A DNA stretch of 32,889 nucleotides from Eubacteriales bacterium (GTDB taxonomy: Bacteria > Bacillota > Clostridia > Saccharofermentanales > UBA5734): the NCBI GenBank assembly GCA_028685755.1, contig JAQUDJ010000019.1, positions 1 to 32,889 on the forward strand, read 5' to 3'. The translations under genes and the position numbers were made by a program. The notes under the pieces were generated by a model. That model saw nothing but the letters and a program-made list of their open reading frames with translations, was not told where the DNA came from and did not search any database. Positions 21,485 to 28,370 of this stretch are shown one piece after another (position 1 is the stretch's first letter; each line of letters starts with the position of its first letter).

Positions 21485-23404
21485 ATGCCGTTTCCCTTCC
21501 GGCGCTCATTATCCGGATCGTCACCCCACTTTAAATTAATAAAAATCGGACTCGCATTGGCCATAGTCGCAAGCATTTTGCTACAGGTGCCATTTGCACC
21601 ATTTTCACGTATTCAATCCAAACAAGAATCCGCCTTGGACAATGACGCGAAAGTATCTGCGGCACTTTTCCGCGCCTATTGCATCGATGGTTATCGGGTG
21701 GATCTGAAAGTTTTAGCAGATGGCTCCGCACAGGTCACGGAAAGCATTGACCTGTTTTTTAATAATGACTGCGATTCGATCACTTTTAATTTAGCCCTGC
21801 AAGGGGCAACCGCATTGCAATTTGATTCGGTAGCAATTGCGAATGTTAACTCAGCTGGCGAGGCTGCTTCACAAATTGAGGTTTTGCCAGCAGCGTCTGC
21901 CCAACAGGCTGGCAATCAAACGCTGTCCTACACCTTAAACGAGGCCGCGTTGAATTCAGAAAATCCGGCAACACGACTGCATGTCAGTGCATATATTCCA
22001 GCAGGATCTGCTTCGCGCTTTATCGTCAACTATACGCTGCGTGGCGGATTTCAATATGTCGATCAATCTGTTTTTATTCGCCGAAGTTTTTTCCAGTCTC
22101 TTGGCCAGCAGGTGATCACAGAACCGATCTTGATGATTAGCTATCCAGACGGGATTGCTGTGGCGGATGTCTGGTACCAGGCGATCTCAAAAGCTTCTTT
22201 TCTTGTAGCACAGGTTGACGCGGTTACGGTTCAAATGAGTGCAATTGAATTGGATCCAAACCAGCAGATGGAAGCCGTACTCGTATTGCCACTAGCTAAC
22301 CTGCAGATGTCGTTCGCTGAGCAATCAGAACCTTCCAACATCAATCGAGCAGTATTTATTCAAACCATTGAAAAGGAAGCCCAAAAACTCAAACGCCACA
22401 CTCAAACGCGGGCATTCTTGATCAGTCTAATCTGGATCTTATTGTTGCTTGCTGGCTTGGGTTATGGTTTGCTGTATATCCTGTTTGACCGGGAAGGCCA
22501 AATCCAACTCAGACAAACGATCAAGCCACAACTTCAAAATGTTTGGCGACCTGCGATGTTAGCCCGCCTCTTCCGCAATCATAACCCAGGTCAACTCCTC
22601 CTAGGCACGTTACTTGATTTAGTCCAACGCGGCAAATTGAAATTGGATGGCCATGTTTTTCGCCAAGAGAATGGACACGCAGCGAGCCTCTTTCAAGGGC
22701 TAACGGCCTATGAGATTTTTTTACTTCAATGGTTATTTGAGCGCGTTGCAACCACAGATTCTGTATCGCCCGCTCAGATTCGCAAGTATGCCTTAGATCA
22801 TCGGACTGCGACAGAATTCTCTGCCTATTACGAGCAGTTTATTACTCTGATTCAGGATGAATTATTGGCCGAAAAATTGATCGATTCGAGCAAAATGATC
22901 CATGGCCGTCGAATCGGGGTCTCGTTAGCCAGTGTTTATGCAATTCTCGCAGCCGTATTCGGTATATTGACATTAAACTGGCTTTCACTGATCTTAGCCG
23001 TGCCATCAAGCCTCTTTTTATACTATGGTCTGAAATGGCGTCACTTAACGGGCGAAGGCAATCGGCAAGCTGATATAGGTCGCGTTTTCCGCAAGACCTT
23101 GCGTCATTTTAGTGCGCATTTAACGGTCGAACAAGCCACCGATCTCCAACTTGGTGAACAACTCGCTCGCCTTTTACCCCATGCTGTTGCATTAGGGGTT
23201 GTGCGGCCTTTCCTGTCACAAACGGCTCATTTGACTCAACAAAAACCGGACCAGTTGCAAGCATTTCTCCGGACGTTCTCCCAGAGTTTGATTGCGACGG
23301 ATCCGGCTCAACAATTAACTGACTTTCAACGTGACCTCGAGGCGATGGACTCCATGTTGTCAGCTAGCCTCTATCTCGCTCTCGGCTTCCACTTCTACGA
23401 GTAA
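21485..23404 (+). CDS. DUF2207 family membrane protein
   Basis: The 639-residue protein matches the layout of DUF2207 (predicted membrane protein) proteins. An N-terminal signal-like helix (about 19-40) is followed by an extracellular beta-rich domain (about 60-280) with DGYRVDLKVLADGSAQVTESI, the family's characteristic start. A membrane helix follows (about 310-333), then a cytoplasmic winged-helix-like region (LLGTLLDLVQRGKLKLDG, about 372-389), two more helices (about 478-515) and a C-terminal cytoplasmic tail. RBS GGAGG is at 21470-21474. Function of the family is unknown. The usual Gly/Ser-rich low-complexity C-terminus is missing; the last 15 codons overlap the convergent RCC1 gene. 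Confidence 0.78.
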   Translation: MPFPFRRSLSGSSPHFKLIKIGLALAIVASILLQVPFAPFSRIQSKQESALDNDAKVSAALFRAYCIDGYRVDLKVLADGSAQVTESIDLFFNNDCDSITFNLALQGATALQFDSVAIANVNSAGEAASQIEVLPAASAQQAGNQTLSYTLNEAALNSENPATRLHVSAYIPAGSASRFIVNYTLRGGFQYVDQSVFIRRSFFQSLGQQVITEPILMISYPDGIAVADVWYQAISKASFLVAQVDAVTVQMSAIELDPNQQMEAVLVLPLANLQMSFAEQSEPSNINRAVFIQTIEKEAQKLKRHTQTRAFLISLIWILLLLAGLGYGLLYILFDREGQIQLRQTIKPQLQNVWRPAMLARLFRNHNPGQLLLGTLLDLVQRGKLKLDGHVFRQENGHAASLFQGLTAYEIFLLQWLFERVATTDSVSPAQIRKYALDHRTATEFSAYYEQFITLIQDELLAEKLIDSSKMIHGRRIGVSLASVYAILAAVFGILTLNWLSLILAVPSSLFLYYGLKWRHLTGEGNRQADIGRVFRKTLRHFSAHLTVEQATDLQLGEQLARLLPHAVALGVVRPFLSQTAHLTQQKPDQLQAFLRTFSQSLIATDPAQQLTDFQRDLEAMDSMLSASLYLALGFHFYE

Positions 23405-25318
23405 TTGTTTGCGTTTCGTGCGACGGTGCTGACTGACGCTCGCAGTGATCATTAATAACACAAGGATACTGGCACCGACCATGTAAGGTGCATAGGGGCC
23501 TAAGATTTTCTGCTTGTTTTGAATTGATTCGATGGACCAAGGCACTTCGGGCGCTTGACGATGGCCGCTTGGGTCGGGCTGCCAGTTGTGACGATCGAGA
23601 TCAATAGGCGCAGTCACGGCAGCACTCGCGACAAAATAAGCTGAAATTGATTGGCCATCAGGCAACACATAGCCGGTCAAATGACCGAGTTCAGGTCGAT
23701 AGACTTCTTTGCTATAAGCGTCATAAACATAAACGACAATCTGCACAGGTGTGCCTTCTTGTAAATTAGGTACGGATATCGCCGTACTCAACCCTGCATC
23801 GTACACGACAGGTTCCTGTCCCGGTGTTGTAATTTCGACCCAATACCCCGCAACCGCTGTATTGTCTTGTGCTTCTGGCCATTTTAAACGCAATATTGTT
23901 CCGTCTTTCCAGCTCGTGTGGATCGTTTGATTAGATAACCAACGTGGGCGGATCAAGTCCGTCGTTGTGACCTGTGTTAATTGGGTTGCGTTGACGACCT
24001 CGCCGTAGCCTAACTGGCCGCGACTATTATCACCAGCTGATGCCAGTAGGCCTTTGCTGCTTTGAATTAAAATATGATTATTGCCAAAGGCGATACTCTC
24101 GATCGGCAGGAATTTTTTTCCGAAATAACCGTCATAAAAGCCTTTGATTTGCACAGGTTCATAGCGGCTTGTTGTTTCTTGTTGCGCTAGCTGATATGTA
24201 TTATTTAAGCCCCATAAATAAATTTCGTTCTTAGGGGTTGGCGTCCAAAATCGTGAGGTTGAGGCATCTCTGAGCACCGCAGATTGAGAATATCCAGCAT
24301 AGATGCCAACGATTCGCTCATCACTCGGATCAAGGTCGCCTGTTAAATCAAGGGCAACGGGGTGATCGACGAATGAGTTCTGATCATTGAGTTTGCCAAG
24401 GCCGAGCTGACCAATAGCATGGCTGCCCCAGACGTATAGCTGCGGGTAACCGGATTGACGAGTAATGGCTAAAACGTGTTCATAACCGGCAGCGATTGCA
24501 GATATTTGATTCACACCCGTTACTAAAGCGGGTGTGCCATGGGCAACCGTTGAGCCATCACCGAGTTGACCCTTGCTATTATCCCCCCATGCAAAGAGTT
24601 GACCGGTCAGATCAATATATAGGGAAAAATTGCCACCGGCAGCGATTGCTGTAGCGCCCTCTTTGACAATTTGCACCGGGTGGGTATTTCGCAAGGCGAT
24701 GATTTCACCGTCGAGACCTAAGACTTGCTCTGATTGAATCTCGCCAACTTGCTGTTGGGTATTGTTACCCCAGGCCCAAACACTGCCATCAATTCCGAGG
24801 GCAAGTGAGTGATAGGCGCCGGCAGCGATCGCTTGGATGATTGGCAAACCAGGCACAACATCTGGACTAGCAACATTTGCGACTTCACCGTTGCCGATTT
24901 GGCCGAAGGCATTGCGACCAAATGCATAGACGGTTCCACTGCGCCCTAAAACAAGTGTGTGGTAAGCGCCAGCAGCAACTGCCGCCGCCGGTTCTGGCAT
25001 CTCAAGGTAAGTCGGGGTATCAGTATGATCACCGACATCCATGCCGAGCTGACTGTAAGCGTTATCGCCCCAGACATAGACGAGACCGTCATAATCGAGT
25101 TGCACGCTGTGCGACACACCCGCGGCAACCGTCGCAGCTGGGGGGATTGGCTGCATTTTGGGATTGAGATCAGCAAAACTCGGAGACGGGGTGACCATAA
25201 TGGGAAAGCTGATCATAACCCCAATCAAAATAGCTAAATAAAAAAAGACAGCCGATAAACGGCGGTGAGTGACGTGCAAATGGGGCTTATGGGGCTTTTT
25301 GGGTTGATTTTGGCGCAT
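23360..25318 (-). CDS. membrane-anchored RCC1-repeat (seven-bladed propeller) protein
   Basis: The 652-residue protein has an N-terminal membrane or signal segment (about 22-49) and seven RCC1 repeats (about 55-450), recognised by VYVWGDNAYSQLG, VYAFGRNAFGQIG, VWAWGNNTQQQVG, LFAWGDNSKGQLG, LYVWGSHAIGQLG, IYLWGLNNTYQLA and SAGDNSRGQLG. This is enough for one complete propeller. A fibronectin III-like domain follows (about 455-545, ending near VYVYDAYSKEVY), then a membrane helix (about 612-634) and a short tail of basic then acidic residues. The propeller should be outside the cell and may bind a ligand or partner. The fifth and sixth repeats contain insertions. Its 3' end overlaps the DUF2207 gene by 45 bases. 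Confidence 0.82.
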   Translation of the reverse strand: MRQNQPKKPHKPHLHVTHRRLSAVFFYLAILIGVMISFPIMVTPSPSFADLNPKMQPIPPAATVAAGVSHSVQLDYDGLVYVWGDNAYSQLGMDVGDHTDTPTYLEMPEPAAAVAAGAYHTLVLGRSGTVYAFGRNAFGQIGNGEVANVASPDVVPGLPIIQAIAAGAYHSLALGIDGSVWAWGNNTQQQVGEIQSEQVLGLDGEIIALRNTHPVQIVKEGATAIAAGGNFSLYIDLTGQLFAWGDNSKGQLGDGSTVAHGTPALVTGVNQISAIAAGYEHVLAITRQSGYPQLYVWGSHAIGQLGLGKLNDQNSFVDHPVALDLTGDLDPSDERIVGIYAGYSQSAVLRDASTSRFWTPTPKNEIYLWGLNNTYQLAQQETTSRYEPVQIKGFYDGYFGKKFLPIESIAFGNNHILIQSSKGLLASAGDNSRGQLGYGEVVNATQLTQVTTTDLIRPRWLSNQTIHTSWKDGTILRLKWPEAQDNTAVAGYWVEITTPGQEPVVYDAGLSTAISVPNLQEGTPVQIVVYVYDAYSKEVYRPELGHLTGYVLPDGQSISAYFVASAAVTAPIDLDRHNWQPDPSGHRQAPEVPWSIESIQNKQKILGPYAPYMVGASILVLLMITASVSQHRRTKRKQLLVEVEAESEIEAS

Positions 25319-25428: not shown

Positions 25429-25452
25429 ATGATTCTACACCAAACATGCTAA
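25429..25452 (+). CDS. seven-codon mini-ORF overlapping the cca start
   Basis: A short frame, MILHQTC, begins at ATG 25429 behind a good Shine-Dalgarno-like GGGAG (25418-25422) and stops at 25452, overlapping the cca ATG at 25446. The cca start itself has no visible RBS. It may couple translation; it could also be chance. Confidence 0.3.
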   Translation: MILHQTC

Positions 25453-26834
25453 ATCCAGCAGATTGGATGAACCTCGTTCCACTTCATGTTTATGATGTGA
25501 TTGACCGACTCGACGCGGCTGGCTATCAAGCATGGCTAGTTGGCGGTTGTGTTCGAGATTTAGCACTCGGCCGGACACCGTACGATTTTGACATCGCAAC
25601 CAGTGCCCGTCCGGAACAAGTCATGGGAATCTTTGAACAAACTATTGCGACTGGCTTGTCGCATGGGACAGTCACCGTTATAATCGACCATCATCCGATT
25701 GAAGTGACAACTTTTCGATCAGAAGGTCACTACACTGACAGCCGTCGCCCTGACTTTGTTGCCTTTGAAACGGATCTTTATCTCGATTTGTCGCGCCGTG
25801 ATTTTACGATCAACAGTATGGCCTTTCATCCACAAAAAGGCCTGATGGATCCGTTTAACGGGTGGCAGGACTTGATTGATCACAGATTACGCACTGTTGG
25901 TGATGCGACGATTCGCTTTCGCGAAGATGCCCTACGGATGTTAAGAGCGCTACGATTGACCTTGAATTATGATTTAGTGCCTGAGCCACATTTAATCAAG
26001 GCTATTGCTGCGGAACGGGAACGTGCCAAGCGATTGAGCGTCGAACGGATTACCCATGAGCTCAAACGGATGATAACAAGTCCTCATGGCTCGAATGTGC
26101 TTTATTTTACCGATAGTCAGATATTAGCGGTCATTGCGCAGATTTTACTTGGGCTACCGGCTGATAATCAGAAACTCACCCAGCTGCTATCTCAATGGAT
26201 TACACCTTCGTGGCATGCTGATCAAGCGATTCCATTGTTTTATTTGGCTGCACGCTTAAGCACGCTAGAACCGCTAGATGATGCGTTAAACGTTAGCCAC
26301 TTGCGCCGGATGTTGACACCTAAATCTCTCAAAAATTTAGCCCGTCATTTTCAATACGATTGCCGGATGTCTAAATTGGCCGCCCGTCATGGCCATGCGG
26401 CCCTGTTTGTTACTAGTCTCAGGTTATGGCAACCGCTAGATCAGGCATACACGAGTCTTGAACTTGCCCGGGTCCTTCGGGTACTCGACCGTAAATTTGC
26501 CCTGGGACCGGATGGCGCGCGACGCTGCCTGGCTGACGGCTTATCAATTTTGGTTAAATTATTCCCAAATTCTCAAGGCGTAATGCATGATTTGATGAAC
26601 GTACGCCAGCAAATTCAACTTGAATGGGACACACAGGGGGCTTATGAATGGCCAATTACATTAAAGGACTTAGCCATTGATGGGCGTGATCTGTCGTTTT
26701 CATCTCATGCTAACGACCATCGATTAGGAGTTAGATTAGAGCGCTTGCTCTCGCTCGTGCAAGTACACCCGACTGAAAATTCGTTAGAATCACTGAGGAA
26801 ACATGTGTTGGACGAGGACTTTTTTGGTGTATAA
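25446..26834 (+). CDS. cca: CCA tRNA nucleotidyltransferase
   Basis: The 462-residue class II nucleotidyltransferase adds or repairs the 3' CCA of tRNAs. The catalytic core shows LVGGCVRDLALGRTPYDFDIAT (about 31-52, with the D-x-D metal ligands in DFD), SRRDFTINSMAF, DP.NG..DL, RTVGDATIRFREDALRMLRALR (about 150-171) and KRLSVERITHELKRM. No HD phosphohydrolase domain is evident, as in most Gram-positive Cca proteins. The start could be 25446 or 25467 (second Met); neither has a clear RBS. tRNA-Asn in this window has an encoded CCA, so for it the enzyme would serve repair. Confidence 0.93.
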   Translation: MLNPADWMNLVPLHVYDVIDRLDAAGYQAWLVGGCVRDLALGRTPYDFDIATSARPEQVMGIFEQTIATGLSHGTVTVIIDHHPIEVTTFRSEGHYTDSRRPDFVAFETDLYLDLSRRDFTINSMAFHPQKGLMDPFNGWQDLIDHRLRTVGDATIRFREDALRMLRALRLTLNYDLVPEPHLIKAIAAERERAKRLSVERITHELKRMITSPHGSNVLYFTDSQILAVIAQILLGLPADNQKLTQLLSQWITPSWHADQAIPLFYLAARLSTLEPLDDALNVSHLRRMLTPKSLKNLARHFQYDCRMSKLAARHGHAALFVTSLRLWQPLDQAYTSLELARVLRVLDRKFALGPDGARRCLADGLSILVKLFPNSQGVMHDLMNVRQQIQLEWDTQGAYEWPITLKDLAIDGRDLSFSSHANDHRLGVRLERLLSLVQVHPTENSLESLRKHVLDEDFFGV

Positions 26835-26880: not shown

Positions 26881-26913
26881 AGGAACTTGGACTAATCAGG
26901 AGGAATTTCTTGT

Positions 26914-28320
26914 ATGGCGAAAACACCTCATGCGTCGCTCTCGCGCATAGCGGCGACTGTAACTGCCCGATATTTTCCAGGCTCAGGGGTCACCGATAAC
27001 TATTATTTAGATGGTCGACTGACGAGCCGCCGCGAACACCGCGCCGCCGATACCACGTTAGACCGTGAAGACCGTGGCTTGTTCTATGCCGCATTTGCCC
27101 ACCAAACCGGTCATGGACCAGACGAAGTAATGGCAACGCGTGTTCACAAATCGCTCGAACGCATTTTGACAGATGTCAAACAAAATGTGCGTAATATAGA
27201 TGCCGAGATCAACGAATTAGCCGAGTGCGCGGTCGATATCGCGGGTCGGATCACCTTGCAACACGAGAATATTCGCCAGCCTTATTTTGCTGGCGTGATG
27301 ATCAAAGATGCTGAATTGGCAGCGATTACGATGGGTCACGGTTGTGCCTATTTGTACCGCAATGATGCCCTCTATCCCTTGACCCATGACGATGTCAATT
27401 TAGAAGCAGTCGATTTTCACGGCAAACCCGTTCCCGGTCAAGATATTTATTGCGCCGGTGTGGCGGGAACTGTCCGTTATTCAAATATTGCGCAATTGCA
27501 ACCAGATGATTGCATTTTAGTATGCAACAAAGAAGTGATTACGACGCTTGGACAACGTGAAATTTTGCGTTTGCTCTACGAAGCGGAAGACCAGGCTGAT
27601 GCTGCTGGGTTAATCATTACCGCCGCTTCTGCCAAGCTTCCCGGGATTCCGATGCAAGTCATAGCTTGTTTCGTTGAGTCACTCAAGCAAGTTGAAAAAA
27701 CCGTCCGTCCAGCAACGAATCGAACGACTCAAGACGCTTCGTTGCTCGGTCGATTAGGCCAAGTGGGCAAAGCTGGAGCTGCTGCTGCAATCAAACAAGA
27801 AGATCATGCCCCGGTTCCGATGCACAACGCGCCTGCTTTAGAAGAAGATGAAGTAAGTCCTTATGACCGAGGTTATTTTGAAAAACCGCGTGATGAAGGT
27901 GGCCGGATTCGCCGACTTGCTTTGTATATGGTGATCACGGCCGTTACGATCGGTGCTGTGTTTGCAATCTTCAATATGATATTTGGCAAGAGTGGCGGTC
28001 CGGCTGTGACCGAACCAACTGAAATTGTTGAATCACTCGATGAAGAGACCGCTGAAACAACGCCTGTTGCCAGTGAATCGATCATCGAAGAAACAACCGA
28101 AACGACAATCGAAGAAACAACTGCCGCGCCAACTGAAACAACAGTTGCAGCGGGTGAAATCTCCCATACGGTAAAATCCGGCGATACCCTATATTCTATC
28201 GCTGTCCAGTATCTCGGCAGTGGCTCGTTAGACACCATCAAAAAAATTAAAGATTACAACAATATCAAGTCTGACAGTCTATCCGTCGGTCAGGTGATCA
28301 AAATACCACCGAAGGGATAA
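26914..28320 (+). CDS. degenerate PP2C-like protein with membrane helix and extracellular LysM domain
   Basis: The 468-residue protein has an N-terminal domain (about 15-256) whose pattern follows PPM/PP2C phosphatases: FYAAFAHQTGHG (57-68) at the VADGMGG site, TMGHGCAYLYRNDALYPLTHDD (139-160) at GDSRAYLYR..LT.DH, and LQPDDCILVCNKEV (195-208) at L.PGD.LLLCSDGL. The metal-binding Asp residues are replaced (His63, His142, Lys206), so it is probably a pseudophosphatase. A linker and one membrane helix follow (about 335-357), then a Thr/Glu-rich stretch (361-413) and one LysM domain (about 417-467; HTVKSGDTLYSIA...VGQVIKIPP) that binds peptidoglycan. RBS AGGAGG (26899-26904). A cell-wall-to-cytoplasm signalling role is an inference. 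Confidence 0.75.
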   Translation: MAKTPHASLSRIAATVTARYFPGSGVTDNYYLDGRLTSRREHRAADTTLDREDRGLFYAAFAHQTGHGPDEVMATRVHKSLERILTDVKQNVRNIDAEINELAECAVDIAGRITLQHENIRQPYFAGVMIKDAELAAITMGHGCAYLYRNDALYPLTHDDVNLEAVDFHGKPVPGQDIYCAGVAGTVRYSNIAQLQPDDCILVCNKEVITTLGQREILRLLYEAEDQADAAGLIITAASAKLPGIPMQVIACFVESLKQVEKTVRPATNRTTQDASLLGRLGQVGKAGAAAAIKQEDHAPVPMHNAPALEEDEVSPYDRGYFEKPRDEGGRIRRLALYMVITAVTIGAVFAIFNMIFGKSGGPAVTEPTEIVESLDEETAETTPVASESIIEETTETTIEETTAAPTETTVAAGEISHTVKSGDTLYSIAVQYLGSGSLDTIKKIKDYNNIKSDSLSVGQVIKIPPKG

Positions 28321-28338
28321 AATTCGATTAAAGACAAG

Positions 28339-28370
28339 GGCCTCCGGAATAGATTTCCGGAGGCCTTTTT
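28339..28370 (+). terminator. strong rho-independent terminator
   Basis: GGCCTCCGGAA (28339-28349) and TTCCGGAGGCC (28355-28365) form a perfect 11-bp GC-rich stem with a five-base loop, followed by TTTTT. It lies 18 bases after the LysM-protein stop codon. Confidence 0.95.

Follow-up and report, generated by a model that had tools for sequence, protein, structure and literature searches.

An open reading frame at 26914-28320 of the window, the full 32,889-nucleotide stretch of DNA analysed here from a bacterium of the order Saccharofermentanales (Clostridia; below, the order), encodes a 468-residue protein that joins a PP2C-like domain across the membrane to a LysM domain, at the position given by an earlier note made from the letters alone. 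It is preceded by a gene for a CCA-adding-type nucleotidyltransferase (25446-26834) and followed by an ABC transporter pair, and, given these neighbours, is probably transcribed alone or as the last gene of an upstream unit. The locus is laid out as follows.

26898..26903, + strand: good ribosome-binding site AGGAGG, 10 bases 5′ of the ATG (sequence reading)
26914..28320, + strand: whole gene, PP2C-like pseudophosphatase-linker-membrane helix-stalk-LysM, 468 aa (homologues in 55 of 58 related genomes)
26935..27687, + strand: PP2C-fold domain, residues 8-258, predicted to be dead from its sequence (AlphaFold, Z about 16, hhalign)
27688..27897, + strand: cytoplasmic disordered linker, residues 259-328 (pLDDT <50 at 260-327; fast-evolving)
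27898..27984, + strand: single membrane helix, residues 329-357 (hydrophobicity, AlphaFold, genus comparisons)
27985..28152, + strand: extracellular Thr/Glu-rich stalk, residues 358-413 (sequence; AlphaFold)
28159..28314, + strand: LysM, residues 416-467 (PF01476; modelled at pLDDT about 90)
28336..28368, + strand: strong intrinsic terminator of 14 pairs, just 3′ of the reading frame

Domain layout and selection

The protein has one hydrophobic segment, which peaks at residue 335 and has RIRR just before it, and the AlphaFold model places a single helix at residues 329-357 between disordered stretches at 260-327 and 359-413. Since RIRR precedes the membrane segment, the PP2C domain is predicted to lie inside the cell, and the positive-inside rule together with the LysM domain suggests the same for the N-terminus. 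The LysM domain was matched by PF01476 at residues 418-465 (E 1.7e-14) with 53.9 bits against a curated cut-off of 20.9, which identifies it as a member of that family; it is the only LysM found in the window genome. The model, the hydrophobicity and the PF01476 match thus bear out the arrangement of single membrane helix, Thr/Glu-rich stalk and extracellular LysM that had been read from the sequence.

For congener pairs with unsaturated synonymous sites, the PP2C-like domain has a dN/dS of about 0.03 and the LysM one of 0.04-0.05, whereas the linker reaches 0.13-0.17; residues 331-358, which make up the membrane segment, are identical in all genus comparisons made, which covered five congeners. 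Together with the near-universal presence of the gene, this strong selection suggests that the protein probably serves in binding or docking and not in catalysis. Of the 50 members scanned, 41 belonging to the order and nine to other families, 36 had a LysM call. Two members (L042 and L044) carry a bacterial SH3 domain (SH3_3), typical of wall-binding proteins, in place of LysM, and four members of one genus (L034, L036, L038 and L043) measure 1,030-1,229 aa, the linker that separates the domain from the membrane helix being very long in these proteins.

Fold and catalytic positions of the N-terminal domain

Pfam and NCBIfam gave no match to the N-terminal domain. None of PF00481, PF13672 and PF07228 recognizes the window protein, which leaves it outside Pfam's PP2C families, and the HMM search with the first two, which the earlier note had put forward as a check, accordingly came back empty; phmmer and hmmsearch against the PDB sequences returned nothing meaningful either. 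The AlphaFold model of the domain, computed from 43 rows of homologues from related genomes, reached a mean pLDDT of 88.6 and a pTM of 0.86, and its best solved structures in Foldseek are all PP2Cs (SpoIIE, PstP and tPphA; prob 1.00, E to 1e-9). VIA-align scored it at Z 16.7 against S. agalactiae STP (195 residues, 3.6 A), 16.4 against PstP, 16.0 against Stp1, about 16 against tPphA and 13.8 against the pseudophosphatase TAB1; these scores and the Foldseek matches assign the window protein to the PP2C/PPM beta-sandwich fold. Independently of structure, hhalign aligned the domain over 240 columns (prob 96, E 3e-9) with an intact PP2C-TM-LysM protein of another Clostridia family (L151) and, more weakly, with a genuine PrpC (130 columns, prob 92, 22% identity). 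The PP2C fold that the earlier note had claimed therefore emerges from both fold and profile comparison. While the missing Pfam match would be expected of a chance resemblance or a decaying gene, such an origin is contradicted by these fold and profile matches, by the presence of the gene in 55 of 58 genomes and by its dN/dS of about 0.03, and we give it almost no credence.

We then read the catalytic columns of the window protein against PrpC and L151 in an alignment with 43 members of the order.

26995..26997, + strand: D28, kept Asp of the PP2C NED motif (alignment; 39 of 43 rows)
27097..27102, + strand: A62-H63, where PP2Cs have the Asp-Gly of DGxGG (alignment)
27337..27339, + strand: H142, where PP2Cs have the Asp of GDSR, a third-metal ligand (alignment)
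27388..27390, + strand: D159, kept Asp at the TxDH position (alignment; 28 of 43 rows)
27529..27531, + strand: K206, where PP2Cs have the Asp of SDGL (alignment)
27646..27657, + strand: I245-Q248 (IPMQ), where PP2Cs have DNxT (alignment)

All four metal-ligand Asp residues are replaced in the window protein, by A62, H142, K206 and, within GIPMQ, I245. The statement that every metal-binding Asp had been replaced holds for the metal ligands proper but not for D28 and D159, which are still acidic; likewise, H142, K206 and the GIPM at DNxT had been named correctly, whereas H63 lies one residue off the aligned A62. The superposition of the predicted structure on PstP, also suggested at the time, yields a PP2C match, and the metal ligands are absent from the aligned sequence. 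Across the order, the DGxGG and SDGL columns hold Asp in 0 of 43 members, the GDSR column in five and the DNxT column in two; no member retains more than one of the four, and the phosphate-binding Arg column is lost in all 43. The Asp ligands of DGxGG, GDSR, SDGL and DNxT thus set the window protein apart from active PP2Cs. Because these ligands are missing, two-metal catalysis is predicted to be absent, and the domain has, to judge from its residues, probably lost phosphatase activity. With a PP2C fold, lost catalytic residues and a gene kept under selection, it is a pseudophosphatase, TAB1-like in kind.

The former ligand positions vary among members (H/N/G/S/R/D at 142, K/R/S/Y/G at 206), and R11, D33, D96, T139, S190 and Q248 are invariant, the last present in 43 of 43 aligned members; the most strongly conserved residues (R11, D33, D96 and S190) are located away from the former catalytic sites. 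It is conceivable that the replaced residues form another active site on the old fold, that of a hydrolase or an altered-metal phosphatase, as the retention of D28 and D159, the six invariant residues and the long stem branch of the order's proteins (2.5-2.9 changes per column; see below) might indicate. However, positions 142 and 206 vary freely, which would not be expected had a new active site arisen there, and we regard a new enzyme as improbable. D28, D159 and lineage-specific His residues do leave room for an altered metal site, comparable to the zinc binding of PHLPP2 (PMC12002173).

Relatives and descent within the Clostridia

A profile search of 391 Clostridia genomes matched 33, of which 18, outside the order, matched weakly; the contig search used a narrower alignment (A2), the whole alignment (A1) being too diverse as a query. 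Beyond the class, two weak matches among 398 genomes yielded no convincing member, and a phage origin was discarded when the phage records searched gave no match. The clearest relatives outside the order again have the PP2C-TM-LysM architecture. A PrpC-rooted tree unites the LysM-fused proteins in a single clade (99/97), in which L151 is basal and the proteins of the order cluster together (100/100) on the long stem mentioned above. By domain order and common ancestry, the window protein thus belongs to a Clostridial PP2C-TM-LysM clade. Its branches are long and leave the order of splits within it uncertain, but the common architecture is separate evidence for the clade.

L151, the best profile match, differs from the window protein in having all catalytic motifs intact and two LysM domains, and is the only fully intact LysM-fused PP2C seen. 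L148 keeps three of the four ligand Asp residues, L171 two and the others two or fewer, so that the clade, as far as its residues tell, runs from fully intact through partly degraded to near-complete loss in the order.

The order also has tail-anchored PP2Cs of its own with mostly intact motifs and without LysM (L186, L187, L188, L189, L190, L191 and L194); L186-L191 share with the window protein an NED-N-F/Y type PP2C domain and a membrane helix. An origin from these proteins was considered, and the corresponding grouping was rejected (AU p 0.004). A further PP2C (L173:1462-3033), partly degraded and equipped with a membrane helix and a Thr/Pro-rich tail, stands apart from the LysM clade in the tree and apparently represents a second, independent loss.

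Compared with known systems, the window protein resembles bacterial PrpC, PstP and Stp1 in fold (residues 8-258, Z about 16) and motif order, but lacks their metal ligands, carries a LysM across the membrane and is too divergent for Pfam. PstP of Mycobacterium tuberculosis likewise has a cytoplasmic PP2C, one membrane helix and an extracellular C-terminus (PMC12088040), although PstP is an active enzyme and has something other than a LysM on the outside. The eukaryotic PPM pseudophosphatases TAB1 and PHLPP2 likewise have a PP2C fold whose metal centre does not work, and they set a precedent for retaining such a dead fold in non-catalytic functions (PMC12002173), but they keep a single metal site and are not membrane-spanning wall-binding proteins. 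In the open-access literature searched, we found neither a bacterial PP2C pseudophosphatase nor a PP2C-LysM fusion described, and a survey from 2025 of how domains are arranged in bacterial PP2Cs makes no mention of LysM (PMC12088040).

A putative wall-anchored binding protein

We favor the reading, with a probability of roughly 0.6, that the protein is a wall-anchored PP2C pseudophosphatase, whose non-dephosphorylating domain binds a partner at the membrane while its LysM grips peptidoglycan. Lacking its catalytic metal ligands, the PP2C fold would not dephosphorylate, but would bind another protein, be it a phosphorylated substrate, a Ser/Thr kinase or a different phosphatase, and keep that partner at the membrane; the helix and stalk would connect the fold to the LysM, and the complex would take up its place at sites of suitable wall, or solely while such wall is available. 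Partner binding as a scaffold or decoy is the most likely role of the dead domain, and the LysM presumably binds peptidoglycan, although it might just as well be a static wall anchor as a sensor, and its target may be some glycan that is not part of the cell's own wall.

Contrary to the expected adjacency to PASTA kinases, no kinase or phosphatase adjoins the gene in about 65 neighborhoods, so that only ancestry makes a connection with the kinase pathway plausible. The neighbors vary by family (radA-ispD-gene-alaS, cca-gene-DUF2298 and others). A real kinase/PP2C pair does exist in related genomes: in congeners, an intact PrpC adjoins a Ser/Thr kinase elsewhere in the genome from the pseudophosphatase gene. 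For the window genome, we infer this pair from the congeners, since its PrpC is interrupted by a contig end and no PASTA kinase was found in the assembly, where the PASTA matches fall in an apparent penicillin-binding protein.

In a more specific form of the favored explanation, the dead domain would compete or pair with PrpC for substrates of a PASTA-type kinase, as a decoy or allosteric subunit, and wall binding would set the balance. The PrpC beside a kinase in related genomes and the competition of STYX with DUSP4 (PMC10211241) lend this some appeal, but the genes are not adjacent, and a common substrate surface with PrpC is not evident given the 22% identity over 130 aligned columns; we hold this version to be possible yet rather doubtful. 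Alternatively, the PP2C fold may be a stable cytoplasmic docking face for an envelope or division protein, with no tie to Ser/Thr phosphorylation. The housekeeping neighborhoods (radA-ispD, cca) and the concentration of conservation in R11, D33, D96 and S190, away from the old catalytic positions, are consistent with such a pure envelope tether, but the family's descent within a clade of catalytic PP2Cs, one LysM-fused member of which is intact, makes a signaling origin likely, and we would accept the tether only with considerable reserve.

Returning to the wall-anchored pseudophosphatase, it is tempting to speculate that it acts as a bacterial receptor, in which binding of peptidoglycan by LysM would alter the dead domain's hold through the invariant helix and thereby set the Ser/Thr phosphorylation of wall-synthesis proteins; we offer this tentatively, as an unlikely but attractive extension. 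If it were true, the Clostridia would preserve an intact-to-dead series of receptor phosphatases. A whole order keeps its PP2C pseudophosphatase under strong constraint. Since intact, partly degraded and dead versions survive in related families, these proteins offer a natural series for the passage from enzyme to binding protein, which also bears on whether a phosphatase-shaped receptor reports the state of the wall to Ser/Thr signaling.

Three further observations concern the surroundings of the gene and the kinases of the assembly. An RCC1-repeat protein at 23360-25318, which carries a signal-like segment at its N-terminus and a hydrophobic helix at its C-terminus, has a relative near the pseudophosphatase family in 13 loci, and relatives of the DUF2207 membrane protein at 21485-23404 lie near the gene in 21 loci. 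The only Pkinase match in the window assembly (G000:C46:7317-7706; L199) falls in a 649-aa reading frame after clpX, which combines a kinase-like domain with an apparent MinD/CpaE-type ATPase region.
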